Shown here: positions 179 to 6,247 of the stretch, in pieces | Layout of the letters: the number at the start of each line of letters is the position of its first letter | Position numbering within the stretch: position 1 is the stretch's first letter | Notes under the pieces: generated by a model | What the model was told of the DNA's origin: nothing | What the model saw: only the letters and a program-made list of their open reading frames with translations | The model's database searches: none | Translations under genes and position numbers: made by a program | NCBI GenBank assembly: GCA_016930775.1 | Contig: JAFGGB010000159.1 | Coordinates: 1-41,354 of the forward strand | Reading direction: 5' to 3' | Length of the DNA: 41,354 nucleotides | Source: Deltaproteobacteria bacterium | GTDB lineage: Bacteria > Desulfobacterota > Syntrophia > Syntrophales > UBA2210

Positions 179-210
179 TGTAACCTGCGGGTCTGTTATT
201 CGTTATAAGG
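179..210 (+). promoter_or_regulatory. Candidate ECF-sigma promoter P1, TGTAACC-N15-CGTTATAAGG
   Basis: TGTAACC 179-185, 15-nt spacer, CGTT 201-204; same motif and spacing recurs at 2635-2660. Confidence 0.6.
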
Positions 211-216
211 GTATCG

Positions 217-687
217 ATGGACGCTTTCGGGACCTTCTACCAGAGTCATCGGGAACGATTGTACGGTTATCTTGTCCGTCTGTCCGGCGATCCCGAACTT
301 GCCCGCGATCTCGTTCAGGACAGCTTCATCCGCTACATGAGCGCCTACGACAAGGAGGTTCCCGCCGCGCCGCTGCTGTATACAATAGCCCGGAACGCCT
401 TTATCGATCATGTGCGAAAGAAGCGAATGGACCATCGGGAAATCGACCAGGAGACTGCGGCAGGCCCCGAACGGTCTCTTCTCGTCCGGGAAGAATATCG
501 GCTGGTTATCAAGGCGTTGCAGCGCCTCGATTCCGACGAGAGGGATATTTTAAGCCTCGCCGTGAGCAGCGGATTGTCCTACCGGGAGATCGCCTCGGTA
601 ACCGGCCTGTCCGAGATGAACGTTAAGGTCAAGGTTCACCGGGCGCGGCAGAAACTTAGGCAGCTTTTAGGGGAGATGCACCAATGA
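217..687 (+). CDS. RNA polymerase sigma factor, sigma-70 family, ECF type
   Basis: Region 2 (FYQSHRERLYGYLVRLSGDPELARDLVQDSFIRYM) and region 4 HTH (LDSDERDILSLAVSSGLSYREIASVTGLSEMNVKVKVHRARQKLRQLL). Confidence 0.93.
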   Translation: MDAFGTFYQSHRERLYGYLVRLSGDPELARDLVQDSFIRYMSAYDKEVPAAPLLYTIARNAFIDHVRKKRMDHREIDQETAAGPERSLLVREEYRLVIKALQRLDSDERDILSLAVSSGLSYREIASVTGLSEMNVKVKVHRARQKLRQLLGEMHQ

Positions 688-1253
688 AGAATGGTCTTAT
701 CAGTCTCTATATTGACGACGAAATGGATCTCGAAGAGAAGGTTCGTTTTGTTGAAACCATAAGGGCCGACGGAGACTTTGCCGGAGAATGCCTGGCCCTT
801 CTGCATCAGGAACAGCTTCTCGGGGGGACCGTAACGGAGGCGCCTGTTTTCATGCCGCTGCCGGAACCGAAGAAGCGATGGAATCGTTTCTTCCCGGCAC
901 GGGCAATCGGCTGGGCTTCGGCGGCGACCCTGGCTGCGGTTCTTATTGTCGTTCTTCTTCCCTTTCGTCAACCCGTTACGACGGCGGCGGTTGAGCATCG
1001 CTTTATTGTGTATCAACCGGAGGCAAAGAACGTTGAGATCATGGGAACTTTTACCGGATGGAAACGGATTTCTCTCGCTAAAAGCGGCTCGGGCGGCTAC
1101 TGGGAAATAACGCTCCCCCTTTCTCCGGCGGAGCATCGATTCTCTTATGTTGCGGACGGAACGGAACGTTTTGCCGATCCGACTGTCCAAGCGAGGGAAC
1201 GCGACGACTACGGCAGCGTCAACTCCGTCATAACGGTGGAGCACAGGGCGTGA
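684..1253 (+). CDS. Anti-sigma-factor-like membrane protein with C-terminal glycogen-binding (CBM48/AMPK1-type) domain
   Basis: ATGA overlap with sigma gene; N-terminal short helical region, one TM segment (AIGWASAATLAAVLIVVLLPF), then VEIMGTFTGWKRISLAKSGSGGYWEITLPLSPAEHRFSYVADGTERFADP. Confidence 0.8.
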   Translation: MKNGLISLYIDDEMDLEEKVRFVETIRADGDFAGECLALLHQEQLLGGTVTEAPVFMPLPEPKKRWNRFFPARAIGWASAATLAAVLIVVLLPFRQPVTTAAVEHRFIVYQPEAKNVEIMGTFTGWKRISLAKSGSGGYWEITLPLSPAEHRFSYVADGTERFADPTVQARERDDYGSVNSVITVEHRA

Positions 1254-1576
1254 AGCGTTCGCCTGCACTGTGGATCATTGTCATTATTGCGTTTGCGGCC
1301 GCGGGTTGCGCATCTCATTACCATCGCGAGAGGGAGGGTCGGCTGATGCTGTACCTTAAGATGCCGGAGGCCAAAAGCGTTCTTTTCGCCTGTTCACTGG
1401 ACAGGTTCACGCCGCGGAAAGCCGCTTTGAGGGACTCATTCTGGGAAGTTGACGTTCCGGCCGGTCGATCCTTTTCCTATTTCTACATTGTAGATGGCGA
1501 GATCTATACGCCGCCATGCTCGCAGAAGGAACGGGACGATTTCGGCTCTCTCAACTGCTTGTACACGGGGCAATAA
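1250..1576 (+). CDS. Lipoprotein with degenerate CBM48-like domain
   Basis: GTGA overlap with previous gene; lipobox AAGC; SFWEVDVPAGRSFSYFYIVDGEIYTPPCSQKERDDFGSLNCLY parallels the C-terminus of the preceding protein. Confidence 0.75.
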   Translation: MKRSPALWIIVIIAFAAAGCASHYHREREGRLMLYLKMPEAKSVLFACSLDRFTPRKAALRDSFWEVDVPAGRSFSYFYIVDGEIYTPPCSQKERDDFGSLNCLYTGQ

Positions 1577-1631
1577 GCTCCGGCAGAACATGCCGATGTC
1601 TTTATTATAGAAGGTTTCGGGGGAAAAAGAG

Positions 1632-2570
1632 ATGAAACGCTTCGCAATCATTATGGCCTTTGTCCTACTGACTGCCGCTCTTGCGCAGGCCGGCGACTCC
1701 GGCACACAGCCGGGCGGTCTCTCGCCGGAGACAGAGGAGGGAATGCAAACCCTGACAGCCGCCGGAATTTCCGCAGATGAAGCTGCGGCGGTTACGAAAG
1801 CCATGAACTCGGCGGGTTTTGCCGTCGGTACGACAAAAAACATACAGCGGGCATTATCGTCGGCATCGCGAACCGGATTCCCCTCGGCGCCGTTCATCGA
1901 TAAAGTCTTCGAAGGCATTGCCAAGGGCGTGACGGGAGAACAGGTTCTCGCCGCCGTCGAGCGCGTCCATAACCGTTTCGAAATCAGCCTTCGGGAAGCG
2001 AAACGGCTCAGTCCCGAGAAGAATCAGGTAAAATCTTATGGAACGATTATCGCCGAATCCCTCCAGGCCGGAATCATCGAGAAAGACCTCGTGTCCGTCA
2101 TGGACGAACTGGTGGAACAGGCATCGAAACAAAAACGGGGAGAAATGACGGCGCTCGCAACAGAGACGCTTCAAACGCTTCGGGACACGGCGCGGCTGCA
2201 GGTTGATTCTTTCGAGGCCGCCGCCATCGTGAAGAGCGCACTGCAACATTCCTTTACATCGGTCGAGATGAAGGAACTGCGGCACAGCATACTTTCCCAG
2301 GCGCGATTCGGCGATCCCCCGTCGATTGCACGACAGTACCGCGACGACATCAAAGAGGGCCGGCAACCCGGGGGCAGAGGATCCCGGGGTCTCTCCGGAG
2401 GGGCGCCCGGCAGTCCCGGCGGGCCTGGCGGGGGGAGCTCCGGCGGAGATTCGGGTAGCGGCTCGGGCGGTGGGAGCTCCGGCGGAAATTCGGGTAGCGG
2501 CTCGGGCGGCGGAAACGCCGGGGGCGGTTCGGGAAACGGTTCGGGCGGCGGAGGGGGAGGCCGCAAGTAG
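1632..2570 (+). CDS. Secreted helical protein with Gly/Ser-rich low-complexity C-terminal tail
   Basis: Signal peptide MKRFAIIMAFVLLTAALAQAG; tail GGAPGSPGGPGGGSSGGDSGSGSGGG... Confidence 0.85.
   Translation: MKRFAIIMAFVLLTAALAQAGDSGTQPGGLSPETEEGMQTLTAAGISADEAAAVTKAMNSAGFAVGTTKNIQRALSSASRTGFPSAPFIDKVFEGIAKGVTGEQVLAAVERVHNRFEISLREAKRLSPEKNQVKSYGTIIAESLQAGIIEKDLVSVMDELVEQASKQKRGEMTALATETLQTLRDTARLQVDSFEAAAIVKSALQHSFTSVEMKELRHSILSQARFGDPPSIARQYRDDIKEGRQPGGRGSRGLSGGAPGSPGGPGGGSSGGDSGSGSGGGSSGGNSGSGSGGGNAGGGSGNGSGGGGGGRK
2433..2510 (+). repeat. Two tandem 39-bp units inside the Gly-rich coding tail
   Basis: gggagctccggcggagattcgggtagcggctcgggcggt (2433-2471) and gggagctccggcggaaattcgggtagcggctcgggcggc (2472-2510). 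Confidence 0.9.
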
Positions 2571-2594
2571 ACATCCAGGCATATCCAATACAGA

Positions 2595-2626
2595 GGGCGG
2601 ACGTTTTTCAGTTCCGCCCTTTTTTA
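2595..2626 (+). terminator. Rho-independent terminator
   Basis: GGGCGGA-loop-TCCGCCC followed by TTTTTT. Confidence 0.85.
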
Positions 2627-2634
2627 ATTTATTC

Positions 2635-2667
2635 TGTAACCATTGTCATGGCGGCACGTTTATACGG
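2635..2667 (+). promoter_or_regulatory. Candidate ECF-sigma promoter P2, TGTAACC-N15-CGTTTATACGG
   Basis: TGTAACC 2635-2641, 15-nt spacer, CGTT 2657-2660; identical boxes and spacing to P1; just after a terminator and upstream of a start codon. Confidence 0.6.
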
Positions 2668-2712
2668 TTAAGAAGCTGCTGCTTCAAACAATTAATTGAG
2701 AAGGAGTTTTTC

Positions 2713-3207
2713 ATGAAAAAAAAGATGCTTCTTTTAGCAACAGTTCTTTTCGTGAGCCTTACGCCCCTTGCCCTCATGGCGGGAGAAGGCTTCGGCCTCG
2801 GCGACGGCACGGGCCCGCTCCATGAGATCATCGGAGAATTCGAATGGACCGGCACGGTCGTCGAATACCTGAGTTACGGGGGAGGAATGGTCATCGCTGC
2901 AACCGACGGCGATGTCGCCGTCTATGGGCTTGGACCCATTCCCTACTGGAAAACTCAGGGCATAGAACGACCCGATGTTGGGGAAAACGTAACCGTCTGG
3001 GGACTCGCCGTGGAGATAAACGGAGAGACTCGGAATATACTCACATCGATTCTCGTTGAAGGCGAGGATGAAGCGCTCCAACTGAGAGACACAGAAACGG
3101 GAAAACCTCTCTGGCGTCCCTTCAGGCTGCACCAACCTCCTGTCGTCGGACCGCCGGCCACTCCTCCCAGCGGCTTCGGTTCCGGCTTTCAACGCAACGG
3201 CCGATAG
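2713..3207 (+). CDS. Secreted protein of unknown function
   Basis: ATG at 2713 after aaggag RBS; signal peptide MKKKMLLLATVLFVSLTPLALMAGEG; the ORF-track start at 2326 is an upstream extension. Confidence 0.85.
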   Translation: MKKKMLLLATVLFVSLTPLALMAGEGFGLGDGTGPLHEIIGEFEWTGTVVEYLSYGGGMVIAATDGDVAVYGLGPIPYWKTQGIERPDVGENVTVWGLAVEINGETRNILTSILVEGEDEALQLRDTETGKPLWRPFRLHQPPVVGPPATPPSGFGSGFQRNGR

Positions 3208-3485: not shown

Positions 3486-3532
3486 ATCGTGACACTATTG
3501 CGTTGACACGTTTTTCGAAATCGTGTTACAAA
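3486..3532 (+). promoter_or_regulatory. Candidate promoter with overlapping operator half-sites upstream of cbiM
   Basis: -35 TTGACA 3503-3508 and -10 TACAAA 3527-3532 (18-nt spacer); half-sites GTGACAC 3489-3495, TTGACAC 3503-3509, GTGTTAC 3523-3529. Confidence 0.5.
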
Positions 3533-3576
3533 ATCTCCCTCACGATGCCCGTTGCAACGGAAGGAGCAGTTCAATC

Positions 3577-4629
3577 ATGCACATGGCCGATGCCCTTATC
3601 TCCCCTGCTGTTGGCGGCGCACTATGGACTGCCACCGCAGGACTGACCGCCTGGTCTGCAAAGAAATTAAACGAAGATTTCGATGACCGAAAGGTTCCTC
3701 TCATGGGCGCTCTGGGCGCCTTCGTTTTCGCCGCCCAAATGATCAATTTTACGATTCCTGCAACCGGTTCAAGCGGCCACCTCGGCGGCGGCATGGCATT
3801 GGCCGTCCTCCTGGGACCCTATGCGGCCTTTCTCACCATGGCTTCGATTCTGACAATACAATCACTTTTTTTTGCGGACGGCGGACTGCTGGCATTGGGA
3901 TGCAACATTTTCAATCTCGGATTTTTCCCCTGCTTTATCGCCTATCCCTTGATATATAAAAAAATCGCAGGAGAAAACCCCTCTGCCGGAAAGATATTTG
4001 CGGGGGCAACTCTCGCATCTCTCGCGGGGTTGCAGTTAGGCGCCTTCGGCGTCGTTGTGGAAACGGTCGCCTCGGGCATCAGCGATCTGCCCTTTTCCAC
4101 CTTCCTGCTCCTCATGCAGCCCATTCACGGCGCCATCGGCATCGTAGAAGGGCTGGTTACCGCTGCCGTGATAACTTTTGTCTGGAAAGCTCGTCCCGAG
4201 GTATTGCTGCTGGCGGAAAAAAGCTCCGCCGAAGGATTCTCCATAAAAGCCGTCTTTGTAGGTCTGATCGCGGCCGCCGTCATAACCGGCGGCATATTCT
4301 CATGGTTTGCCTCCGTTCATCCCGACGGGCTCGAATGGGCGCTGTTCCATGCATCCGGCAAAGAGGAATTCAGGAATCCTGAAGAGAGCGCCCATTCACT
4401 GCTGGCAGGCATCCAGGAAAAAACGGCTGTAATGCCCGATTACGGATTCAAAAACAGTCGAACCGTTCAAGAAGACGCAACGGCCTCAGAAGAACAGTGG
4501 CCGGCAGTAAGCATCGGCACATCGACAGCCGGAATCGTCGGAGGCGGATTGACCCTGTTTTTTGCGGGACTTGTCGGTTTTCTCCTGAGGCTCATCGGAC
4601 GGTCGAGGCAGGCCTCGCCTGGGAGATAA
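3577..4629 (+). CDS. cbiM: Energy-coupling-factor cobalt/nickel transporter substrate-binding subunit, CbiM/NikM with fused C-terminal PDGLE (NikN-like) domain
   Basis: MHMADALISPAVGG N-terminus (His2 supports ATG at 3577); multiple TM segments; VHPDGLEWA motif then final TM. Confidence 0.9.
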   Translation: MHMADALISPAVGGALWTATAGLTAWSAKKLNEDFDDRKVPLMGALGAFVFAAQMINFTIPATGSSGHLGGGMALAVLLGPYAAFLTMASILTIQSLFFADGGLLALGCNIFNLGFFPCFIAYPLIYKKIAGENPSAGKIFAGATLASLAGLQLGAFGVVVETVASGISDLPFSTFLLLMQPIHGAIGIVEGLVTAAVITFVWKARPEVLLLAEKSSAEGFSIKAVFVGLIAAAVITGGIFSWFASVHPDGLEWALFHASGKEEFRNPEESAHSLLAGIQEKTAVMPDYGFKNSRTVQEDATASEEQWPAVSIGTSTAGIVGGGLTLFFAGLVGFLLRLIGRSRQASPGR

Positions 4630-4661
4630 CGGCCTTGCCTGTTCTCCTCAAGAGGTGTGGA

Positions 4662-5504
4662 ATGAAGGGGATGCCGCCGGAGACATGCGGAATGTCGCGG
4701 CTTGATTCGGCCGTTGGTTCCATGAAAGATCAAGACCGTCCTGCAGGGCGCGAAAGGACTGTCCGCTGCATTGACCCCCGGGCCATGCTTATCACGACGT
4801 TCATTTATATCGCCGTTGTGACTTCTTTTGAAAAATTCGACCTTCTCGGTCTCCTGCCCCTGGTCATTTACCCCCTGTTCATCATGGAACTGAACAACCT
4901 TTCCCCCGGCGCCATCGGCAGGAAACTCCTCTATGTTTCACCTTGTGCGCTCATGATCGGCATATTCAACCCTCTCTTCGACAACCGGGTCGTTTTACAC
5001 CTCGGATCTCTGGCTGTTTCGGGCGGCTGGATCTCCTTTACGGTTCTCATGGTCAAGTTTGTTCTGACGGCGAGCGCCGCGCTTATCCTGGCAGCAATCT
5101 GCGGATTCGACACTCTCTGCGTCGCTCTCGAGAAACTGAAAATGCCAAAGGTCTTTGTCTCGCAGCTGCTCTTCATGCACCGCTACATTTTCCTCACGGC
5201 CGACGAAGCGTCCCGAATGGTTCGAGCCCATTCCGTGCGATCCTTTCGCCGCAAAGGAATGAAAATCAAGGTATTTGGTTCTCTCTGCGGGCAGCTGCTC
5301 CTTCGAACTCTCGACAGGGCGCTTCGCATACGCCATGCCATGGTTTCCCGGGGCTTCAGAGGGGACGTGCCTCTCATCCGGGAGCTGAAAGCGGGGAAAG
5401 GGGACACGGCCTTTGTCTTCTTATGGACCGCTTTTTTCATTATCGCCCGCTGTTTCAATCTCCCGCAATTGCTCGGCGCATTCGTCATGGACAAATTCGC
5501 ATGA
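4662..5504 (+). CDS. cbiQ: Cobalt/nickel ECF transporter transmembrane subunit CbiQ/NikQ
   Basis: CbiQ-like TM and coupling region (RMVRAHSVRSFRRKGMKIKVFGSLCGQLLLRTLDRALRIRHAMVSRGFRG); exact start uncertain. Confidence 0.88.
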   Translation: MKGMPPETCGMSRLDSAVGSMKDQDRPAGRERTVRCIDPRAMLITTFIYIAVVTSFEKFDLLGLLPLVIYPLFIMELNNLSPGAIGRKLLYVSPCALMIGIFNPLFDNRVVLHLGSLAVSGGWISFTVLMVKFVLTASAALILAAICGFDTLCVALEKLKMPKVFVSQLLFMHRYIFLTADEASRMVRAHSVRSFRRKGMKIKVFGSLCGQLLLRTLDRALRIRHAMVSRGFRGDVPLIRELKAGKGDTAFVFLWTAFFIIARCFNLPQLLGAFVMDKFA

Positions 5505-6247
5505 GTCACCATATCGTTGAGGTCAAAGATCTTGAATATGTTTACCCCGACGGGACTCCGGCATTGAAGGACCTCTCGTTCACGATCCTCCACGGCGAGT
5601 CCGTGGGACTGGTGGGCGCCAACGGCGCCGGGAAGTCCACCCTCCTGCTCCACCTGAACGGATGCCTTTTCCCGCAGAGCGGCACTGTCAGGATCGGTCA
5701 CTTCCCCATTACCAGGAAAAATATCAACGATGTGCGGCGACGGGTAGGCATGGTCTTTCAGGATCCCGACGATCAGCTTTTCATGCCGCGGGTCTTCGAT
5801 GATGTGGCCTTCGGACCCTTGAACCTTGGAATGCCCCGCGAAGAAGTGAAAAGCCGCGTCATCGAGGCGCTGCGCCTCGTGAGCGCAGAACACCTGGCAT
5901 ATCGTCCGCCCTATAAGATCTCCGGCGGAGAAAAGCGCGCCGCTGCCATTGCCACCGTTCTCTCAATGTCGCCCGATCTGCTTGTCCTGGACGAACCGAG
6001 CTCCGGCCTCGATCCCAAGTCGCGGCGGCAGCTCATAGGACTGCTGAAAAACTTCAACCACACAAAGATCATCGCCACCCACGACCTGGACCTCGTTATG
6101 GATCTCTGCGAGCGCACTATTGTCATCAACGCCGGCCGGGTCACGGCCGACGGTCCCACCATGAAAATCTTCCGTAATGAAGCTCTTTTGGAGGCCAATC
6201 GCCTGGAAAAGCCTCTCCGCATGCAAGGCTGCCCGGCAGATCACTAA
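5501..6247 (+). CDS. cbiO: Cobalt/nickel ECF transporter ATP-binding subunit CbiO/NikO
   Basis: Walker A GANGAGKST, signature ISGGEKR, Walker B LLVLDEPSSGLD; ATGA overlap with cbiQ. Confidence 0.95.
   Translation: MSHHIVEVKDLEYVYPDGTPALKDLSFTILHGESVGLVGANGAGKSTLLLHLNGCLFPQSGTVRIGHFPITRKNINDVRRRVGMVFQDPDDQLFMPRVFDDVAFGPLNLGMPREEVKSRVIEALRLVSAEHLAYRPPYKISGGEKRAAAIATVLSMSPDLLVLDEPSSGLDPKSRRQLIGLLKNFNHTKIIATHDLDLVMDLCERTIVINAGRVTADGPTMKIFRNEALLEANRLEKPLRMQGCPADH

Follow-up and report, generated by a model that had tools for sequence, protein, structure and literature searches.

At positions 217–2570 of the window (the whole stretch of 41,354 nucleotides that was analysed), four genes encode an ECF sigma factor, a predicted membrane anti-sigma factor with an extracytoplasmic CBM48 domain, a CBM48-like lipoprotein and an exported helical solenoid protein that we call P4. 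The gene set is beyond chance, as it recurs in dozens of genera, and it probably represents a self-contained transmembrane switch, which we regard as the best overall explanation of the sequence data. Both the operon and the family to which it belongs are established at the level of sequence. As far as our literature search reached, the module is apparently undescribed: within its partial coverage, no paper was found that describes an ECF factor controlled by an anti-sigma factor of CBM48 or glycogen-binding type, in line with an earlier note on this DNA whose author knew of no characterised ECF system with such a sensor. The sigma factors themselves may already be contained in an unnamed ECF group.

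The earlier note had described four genes on the same strand, the first three of them joined by 4-bp overlaps. Coordinates and overlaps were confirmed: all four open reading frames lie on the plus strand, the frames 217–687 and 684–1253 share ATGA at 684–687, and the frames 684–1253 and 1250–1576 share GTGA at 1250–1253. The extent of the cassette has to be widened to 179–3207, because a promoter motif at 179 and its second copy at 2635 add a secreted open reading frame at 2713–3207. The features are as follows:

179–206, plus strand: predicted sigma-dependent promoter, -35 TGTAACC at 179–185, 15-bp spacer, -10 CGTTAT at 201–206 (pattern and matrix)
217–687, plus strand: ECF sigma factor of 156 aa that has only the sigma2 and sigma4 regions (Pfam; PDB ECF sigma matches)
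684–1253, plus strand: predicted membrane anti-sigma factor, 189 aa, with a cytoplasmic helical N-terminus (about 684–833), a TM helix (900–956) and an extracytoplasmic CBM48 domain (990–1241) (Pfam AMPK1_CBM and CBM_48, AlphaFold, Foldseek, charge)
1250–1576, plus strand: lipoprotein with a CBM48-like domain, predicted outer membrane (hhalign, family alignment, lipobox)
1632–2570, plus strand: P4, exported all-helical solenoid (about 1719–2360) with a disordered Gly/Ser tail (about 2370–2567) (AlphaFold)
2635–2660, plus strand: the sigma promoter motif for a second time, TGTAACC at 2635–2641 and CGTT at 2657–2660 (matrix)
2713–3207, plus strand: predicted target, a secreted 164-aa protein that starts GEGFGLGDGTGP after its signal peptide (position behind the motif)

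Further downstream (3523–6247), the translations look by eye like a CbiM/CbiQ/CbiO-type cobalt transporter, which has no evident link to the cassette.

The sigma factor and its membrane partner

The product of the first gene had been called an ECF sigma factor and this holds: Pfam matched Sigma70_r2 (E 1.3e-14) and Sigma70_r4_2 (E 1.5e-14). With sigma2 and sigma4, and with neither sigma1 nor sigma3 by Pfam, the 156-aa protein belongs to the ECF (group IV) factors, and the ECF hallmark of an autoregulated promoter with an AAC-type -35 and a CGT-type -10 is present by sequence across the family.

For the second protein, a helical N-terminus, one TM helix and an extracytoplasmic beta domain of glycogen-binding type had been proposed, and this anti-sigma-like architecture is borne out by several lines of evidence. 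AlphaFold predicts a single membrane helix (residues 73–91) and a beta domain (residues 103–186) with a pLDDT mostly >90, and Foldseek superimposes the latter on the glycogen-binding domain of AMPK beta1 (1z0m_B) with a target TM-score of 0.89. Pfam matched AMPK1_CBM (E 3e-12, residues 108–187) and CBM_48 (E 5e-7), both above the curated cut-off. By fold and profile, the domain is thus a member of CBM48/AMPK1_CBM, the match to CBM48/E-set folds on which the earlier note had made its proposal depend; no other AMPK1_CBM match above the cut-off was found in the window's 3.1-Mb draft genome. The same note had also suggested an HMM search of this protein for anti-sigma domains: residues 5–22 resemble zf-HC2 weakly (E 0.022), below the Pfam cut-off. 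When the N-termini of the window's protein family (hereafter type A) were aligned to the zinc anti-sigma domain by hhalign, both ran in register over 50 columns (E 0.03). These two likenesses are only suggestive, and no significant anti-sigma Pfam match was found in type A proteins. Filing the protein as a zinc anti-sigma (ZAS) factor was rejected, since the HxxxCxxC zinc ligands occur in 0/93 type A members. It is not of the RsgI type either, because Pfam did not match the RsgI N-terminal domain and the partner is an ECF sigma factor.

Nevertheless, the protein has the general features of a membrane anti-sigma factor, namely a gene co-transcribed with sigma, as judged from linkage and overlap, and, by predicted topology, an N-in single TM helix and an extracytoplasmic domain. 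The charge pattern of the family is positive-inside, so that the conserved N-terminal helices should lie on the cytoplasmic side. Support for an anti-sigma role comes from more distant CBM48 anti-sigma proteins of the phylum, since most of these sister proteins join a TM helix and CBM48 to an anti-sigma domain of the classical HxxxCxxC kind; this domain was found in 12 of the 17, and zf-HC2 reached E 1.4e-6 in one of them (L077). Given linkage, topology and these zinc-domain sister proteins, it is very likely that the N-terminus of 684–1253 sequesters the sigma factor.

Full-length relatives of the anti-sigma protein with 39–46 percent identity were obtained by genome searches within the phylum. 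A genome scan with the single sequence matched nothing and an alignment query was required; the family alignment, run against species genomes, produced 160 matches, and among the 80 listed nearly all are from Desulfobacterota by record title. Within the window's own order the distribution is patchy, with a full-length member in 12 of 156 genomes. Counted over the independent loci that could be tested, the sigma gene adjoins the anti-sigma gene in 68/72, the lipoprotein is present in 67/70 and P4 in 60/64. Thus the four genes travel as a unit, and the neighbourhood survey that the earlier note had suggested upholds the pairing of sigma and anti-sigma. At some loci (L168, L177, L178, L202), P4, with or without the lipoprotein, lies upstream of the sigma gene instead of downstream. 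Several apparent losses of lipoprotein or P4 were discarded as gene-calling artefacts or as cassettes with both genes upstream of sigma; P4 is missing from four testable loci (L179, L192, L200, L205). One draft genome holds two sigma/CBM48 anti-sigma pairs (L190 and L205), of which the L205 copy has no lipoprotein and no P4 nearby. The cassette also occurs in records of the named strains Desulfosarcina widdelii, Desulfogranum japonicum and Desulfogranum marinum, so the switch can be tested.

Exported proteins, promoter motif and predicted regulon

The third gene (1250–1576) had been labelled a CBM48 lipoprotein. Although it has no Pfam match by itself, a profile of its family aligns with the anti-sigma CBM48 domain (hhalign, probability 98.6, E 1e-15) and consequently the label is right. 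A lipobox is present in 82 of the 87 family members and Asp at +2 in none, which predicts an outer-membrane location. The family alignment further shows two conserved cysteines besides that of the lipobox and the loss of the equivalent of AMPK W100.

P4, which had been proposed to be a Gly-rich secreted protein, indeed comprises a signal peptide and a Gly/Ser tail, together with an invariant K-x2-EG-x2-K motif. AlphaFold predicts a helical solenoid for residues 30–243 (pLDDT mostly >90) and a disordered Gly tail. No Pfam family matched, and a PDB fold search gave no significant match, the best being designed helical repeats. A profile of P4, run against 148 genomes, matched in 18 genomes at 19 places; a CBM48 anti-sigma gene is the neighbour at 19/19 and an ECF sigma gene at 17/19 within the stretch examined. 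P4 is a novel family of helical solenoids that, across these genomes, occurs nowhere but next to CBM48 anti-sigmas, and since all 19 places adjoin such a protein it behaves like a component of the signalling module. P4 as an output also fits, because it often has a promoter that is predicted to be sigma-dependent. In the window, no separate promoter could be recognised for P4, which would be transcribed together with sigma.

A pattern search places the motif TGTAAC-N16-CGTT at the sigma gene start in the window and in 18 relatives, and the matrix finds it in L066, the last of these 20 loci. Most of them have another copy in the interval that separates the lipoprotein gene from P4. The matrix, trained on sigma promoters of related loci, scores the site at 179 with 33.5 in the 41-kb window, followed by 2635–2660 (14.3) and a third-best site (11.0). 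The motif precedes sigma in all of the first 20 loci and in 49/61 testable independent loci, and P4 in 40/66 independent loci, and sites scoring at least 17 number 121 in independent loci compared with 1.0 in Markov-shuffled sequence. Strict matches in 19 related genomes fall almost all at the cassette locus, with few matches to the control pattern. In the window's genome, the matches judged real are only the two in the window; unlinked matches (C91, C116, C117, C171, C189) were rejected, none of them preceding a secreted Gly-rich gene.

Among small secreted Gly-rich open reading frames other than P4 in cassette loci, 24 of 31 have the motif within 330 bp, while random positions gave a mean of 1.05 and a maximum of 6 in 500 runs, an enrichment that applies close to the cassette, where it was measured. 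Since the motif is nearly confined to this locus and precedes small secreted Gly-rich genes, the regulon looks tiny and exported. The sequence evidence for promoter and predicted regulon is strong, and it agrees with the surface or secreted targets that had been anticipated. The predicted target at 2713–3207 belongs to no Pfam or NCBIfam family; it is 43 percent identical (E 1e-31) to a protein of Syntrophaceae UBA6252 (L128), which also lies behind the motif and next to a cassette. Gly-rich secreted proteins behind the motif typically carry GPGDGTG...GPKDGTG repeats. DUF5320, which we presumed to be a possible known family for these GDGTG proteins, did not match when they were tested against Pfam/NCBIfam, and neither did any other known family. 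Small secreted proteins with GHGPGDGTGNGG.GPKDGTGYGPG-type repeats were seen at L134, L138, L146, L151, L153, L180, L187, L189 and others, some with a Cys near the end and without a Pfam or NCBIfam family. Motif-like sites were also seen upstream of predicted secreted cytochrome c/di-haem peroxidase-like proteins (L181:4490, L190:3695) and of predicted cytoplasmic sensory-type, multi-CxxC proteins (L177, minus strand; L194:3895, plus strand).

The sister group differs in its output. Downstream of the module, its loci encode multihaem cytochromes with 6–21 CXXCH motifs, and its P4 relatives lack the Gly tail and retain the K-x2-EG-x2-K motif. The type A promoter matrix found no comparable site over the sister-group loci, so their promoter differs. 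Sister loci beside or in cytochrome operons are L073, L074, L076, L077, L078, L079, L082, L083, L084, L086 and L087, where the CBM48 anti-sigmas are mostly of the zinc-domain kind and mostly stand beside a P4 relative. A third type (L080, L081, L085) combines an extra CBM48 protein, a sigma factor, a CBM48 anti-sigma lacking HxxxCxxC and a P4 relative whose Gly-rich tail is long. Sigma, CBM48 anti-sigma and P4 form the shared core, and the output varies.

What the CBM48 domain may sense

We propose that the short helical N-terminus of the one-TM protein would hold the ECF sigma factor at the inner membrane. Once the extracytoplasmic CBM48-fold domain reads its signal, sigma would be released, probably by stepwise proteolysis, the usual route of release from membrane anti-sigma factors in general. 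The freed sigma factor would transcribe from TGTAACC-N15-CGTT its own operon (feedback), P4 where this is separately promoted, and one or a few secreted Gly-rich genes; the product would be a Gly-rich material outside the cytoplasm, probably at the surface. As the input, P4 touching the CBM48 domain is most likely, a second contact being made by the CBM48-like lipoprotein, and the switch would thereby report what state the exported material is in. Binding of a glycan may tune this contact or may itself be the primary signal. As the exported P4 is linked only to CBM48 anti-sigmas, binding of a protein, which the earlier note had raised besides a glycan, is at least as likely as binding of a glycan, and P4 as co-sensor is a serious candidate, although we would stop short of calling it probable.

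One might instead assume that the CBM48 domain binds alpha-glucan or another polysaccharide outside the inner membrane and so releases sigma, with P4 and the Gly-rich proteins as outputs only. Such direct glycan sensing is possible, yet doubtful. It would fit the fold of the domain and the polysaccharide-binding C-terminal CBMs of RsgI (PMC4711584). Alignment to AMPK beta1, whose main glycan contacts we take to be W100, K126, W133 and N150, gives evidence in both directions. Every type A protein (93/93) has the W100 and N150 equivalents, which also occur in 17/17 and 16/17 sister proteins, respectively, and an extra Trp (W140) is invariant in both groups. However, the K126 and W133 equivalents are replaced in type A proteins, which thus lack the complete AMPK contact set, and the FxxW motif is common to CBM48-type domains generally and may be structural. 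With two of four sugar contacts invariant and two lost, glycan sensing is unproven. Moreover, among linked genes with an identified product none was noted to encode a polysaccharide-degrading enzyme, and P4 goes with the sensor and not with any single output.

Alternatively, the cassette might be an envelope-stress module in which the CBM48 domain and the lipoprotein detect mis-sorted or accumulated exported protein, in the manner of RseA/RseB, with the Gly-rich proteins as protective or sacrificial products. A lipoprotein with conserved cysteines adjoining the anti-sigma gene, an autoregulated sigma factor (by its promoter motif) and P4 as an additional extracytoplasmic partner are all consistent with this, but the tiny predicted regulon contains no chaperones, proteases or assembly factors and the sister group is tied to multihaem cytochromes, which makes it improbable. 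That the one-TM CBM48 protein is a mere co-transcribed surface protein, with sigma controlled by other means, draws on the lack, in type A, of a zinc motif and of a significant anti-sigma Pfam match, but is very unlikely in view of the 4-bp overlap, the near-universal linkage to sigma, the predicted cytoplasmic N-terminus and the clear zf-HC2 domain of sister proteins with the same CBM48 domain.

Returning to a switch with P4 at its sensor, a joint reading that is bolder than its parts is possible, though less likely than not: an undescribed module of ECF sigma, CBM48 anti-sigma and obligate P4 might switch on extracellular materials across Desulfobacterota according to the state of the outer matrix. 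Its outputs would be Gly-rich protein material of no known family in one branch and multihaem cytochromes of the extracellular-electron-transfer kind in the other, and P4, not free sugar, would be the immediate partner of the sensor. For the extracellular proteins of sulfate reducers and syntrophs, in which the signals for surface material are poorly known, the cassette offers a switch that is well delimited and open to testing, with a defined sensor fold, a defined promoter and a very small predicted regulon. It also adds three unannotated protein families, namely P4, the CBM48-like lipoprotein and the GDGTG-type secreted proteins. Since the sister group shares sensor and solenoid at cytochrome operons, working out one signal may explain the building of electron-conducting versus matrix material.

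Relation to known systems

In its fold, and in two of the four residues that make the main sugar contacts, the sensor agrees with the glycogen-binding domain of AMPK beta (AMPK1_CBM/CBM48), but it is extracytoplasmic, attached to an anti-sigma protein and devoid of the K126 and W133 equivalents. With canonical ZAS (zf-HC2) factors the protein has topology and genetic linkage in common, and most sister proteins fuse HxxxCxxC to CBM48, whereas all 93 members of the window's family are without zinc ligands. In the sigma-E system, RseA and RseB, the anti-sigma factor and its exported partner, are encoded in one autoregulated operon. The same arrangement of anti-sigma and exported partner is found here, yet no sequence relation was found and the predicted regulon is small and secreted instead of being an envelope-stress regulon.

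The nearest counterparts are Rsi24C and the RsgI proteins, both from Clostridium thermocellum. Sigma-24C/Rsi24C likewise pairs a sigma-24-type factor with a membrane anti-sigma protein that carries a GH5-like domain of the carbohydrate-active-enzyme type (PMC3990059). However, sensor fold, host and targets all differ, and Rsi24C comes without a CBM48 sensor, P4 or Gly-rich targets (PMC3990059). The anti-sigma-I factors (RsgI) of Clostridium thermocellum bear external, polysaccharide-binding CBMs at the C-terminus and are thought to bind polysaccharide outside the cell and to release sigma (PMC4711584). SigI lies outside the ECF factors, RsgI has another kind of N-terminus, the host is Gram-positive, the RsgI sensors are CBM3, PA14, GH10, CBM42 and others, not CBM48, and neither the solenoid P4 nor Gly-rich targets are present. 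Nevertheless, both systems combine a sigma-binding cytoplasmic N-terminus, a membrane segment and an external C-terminal domain of carbohydrate-binding type with an autoregulated sigma operon and extracellular targets (PMC4711584), as is predicted here.
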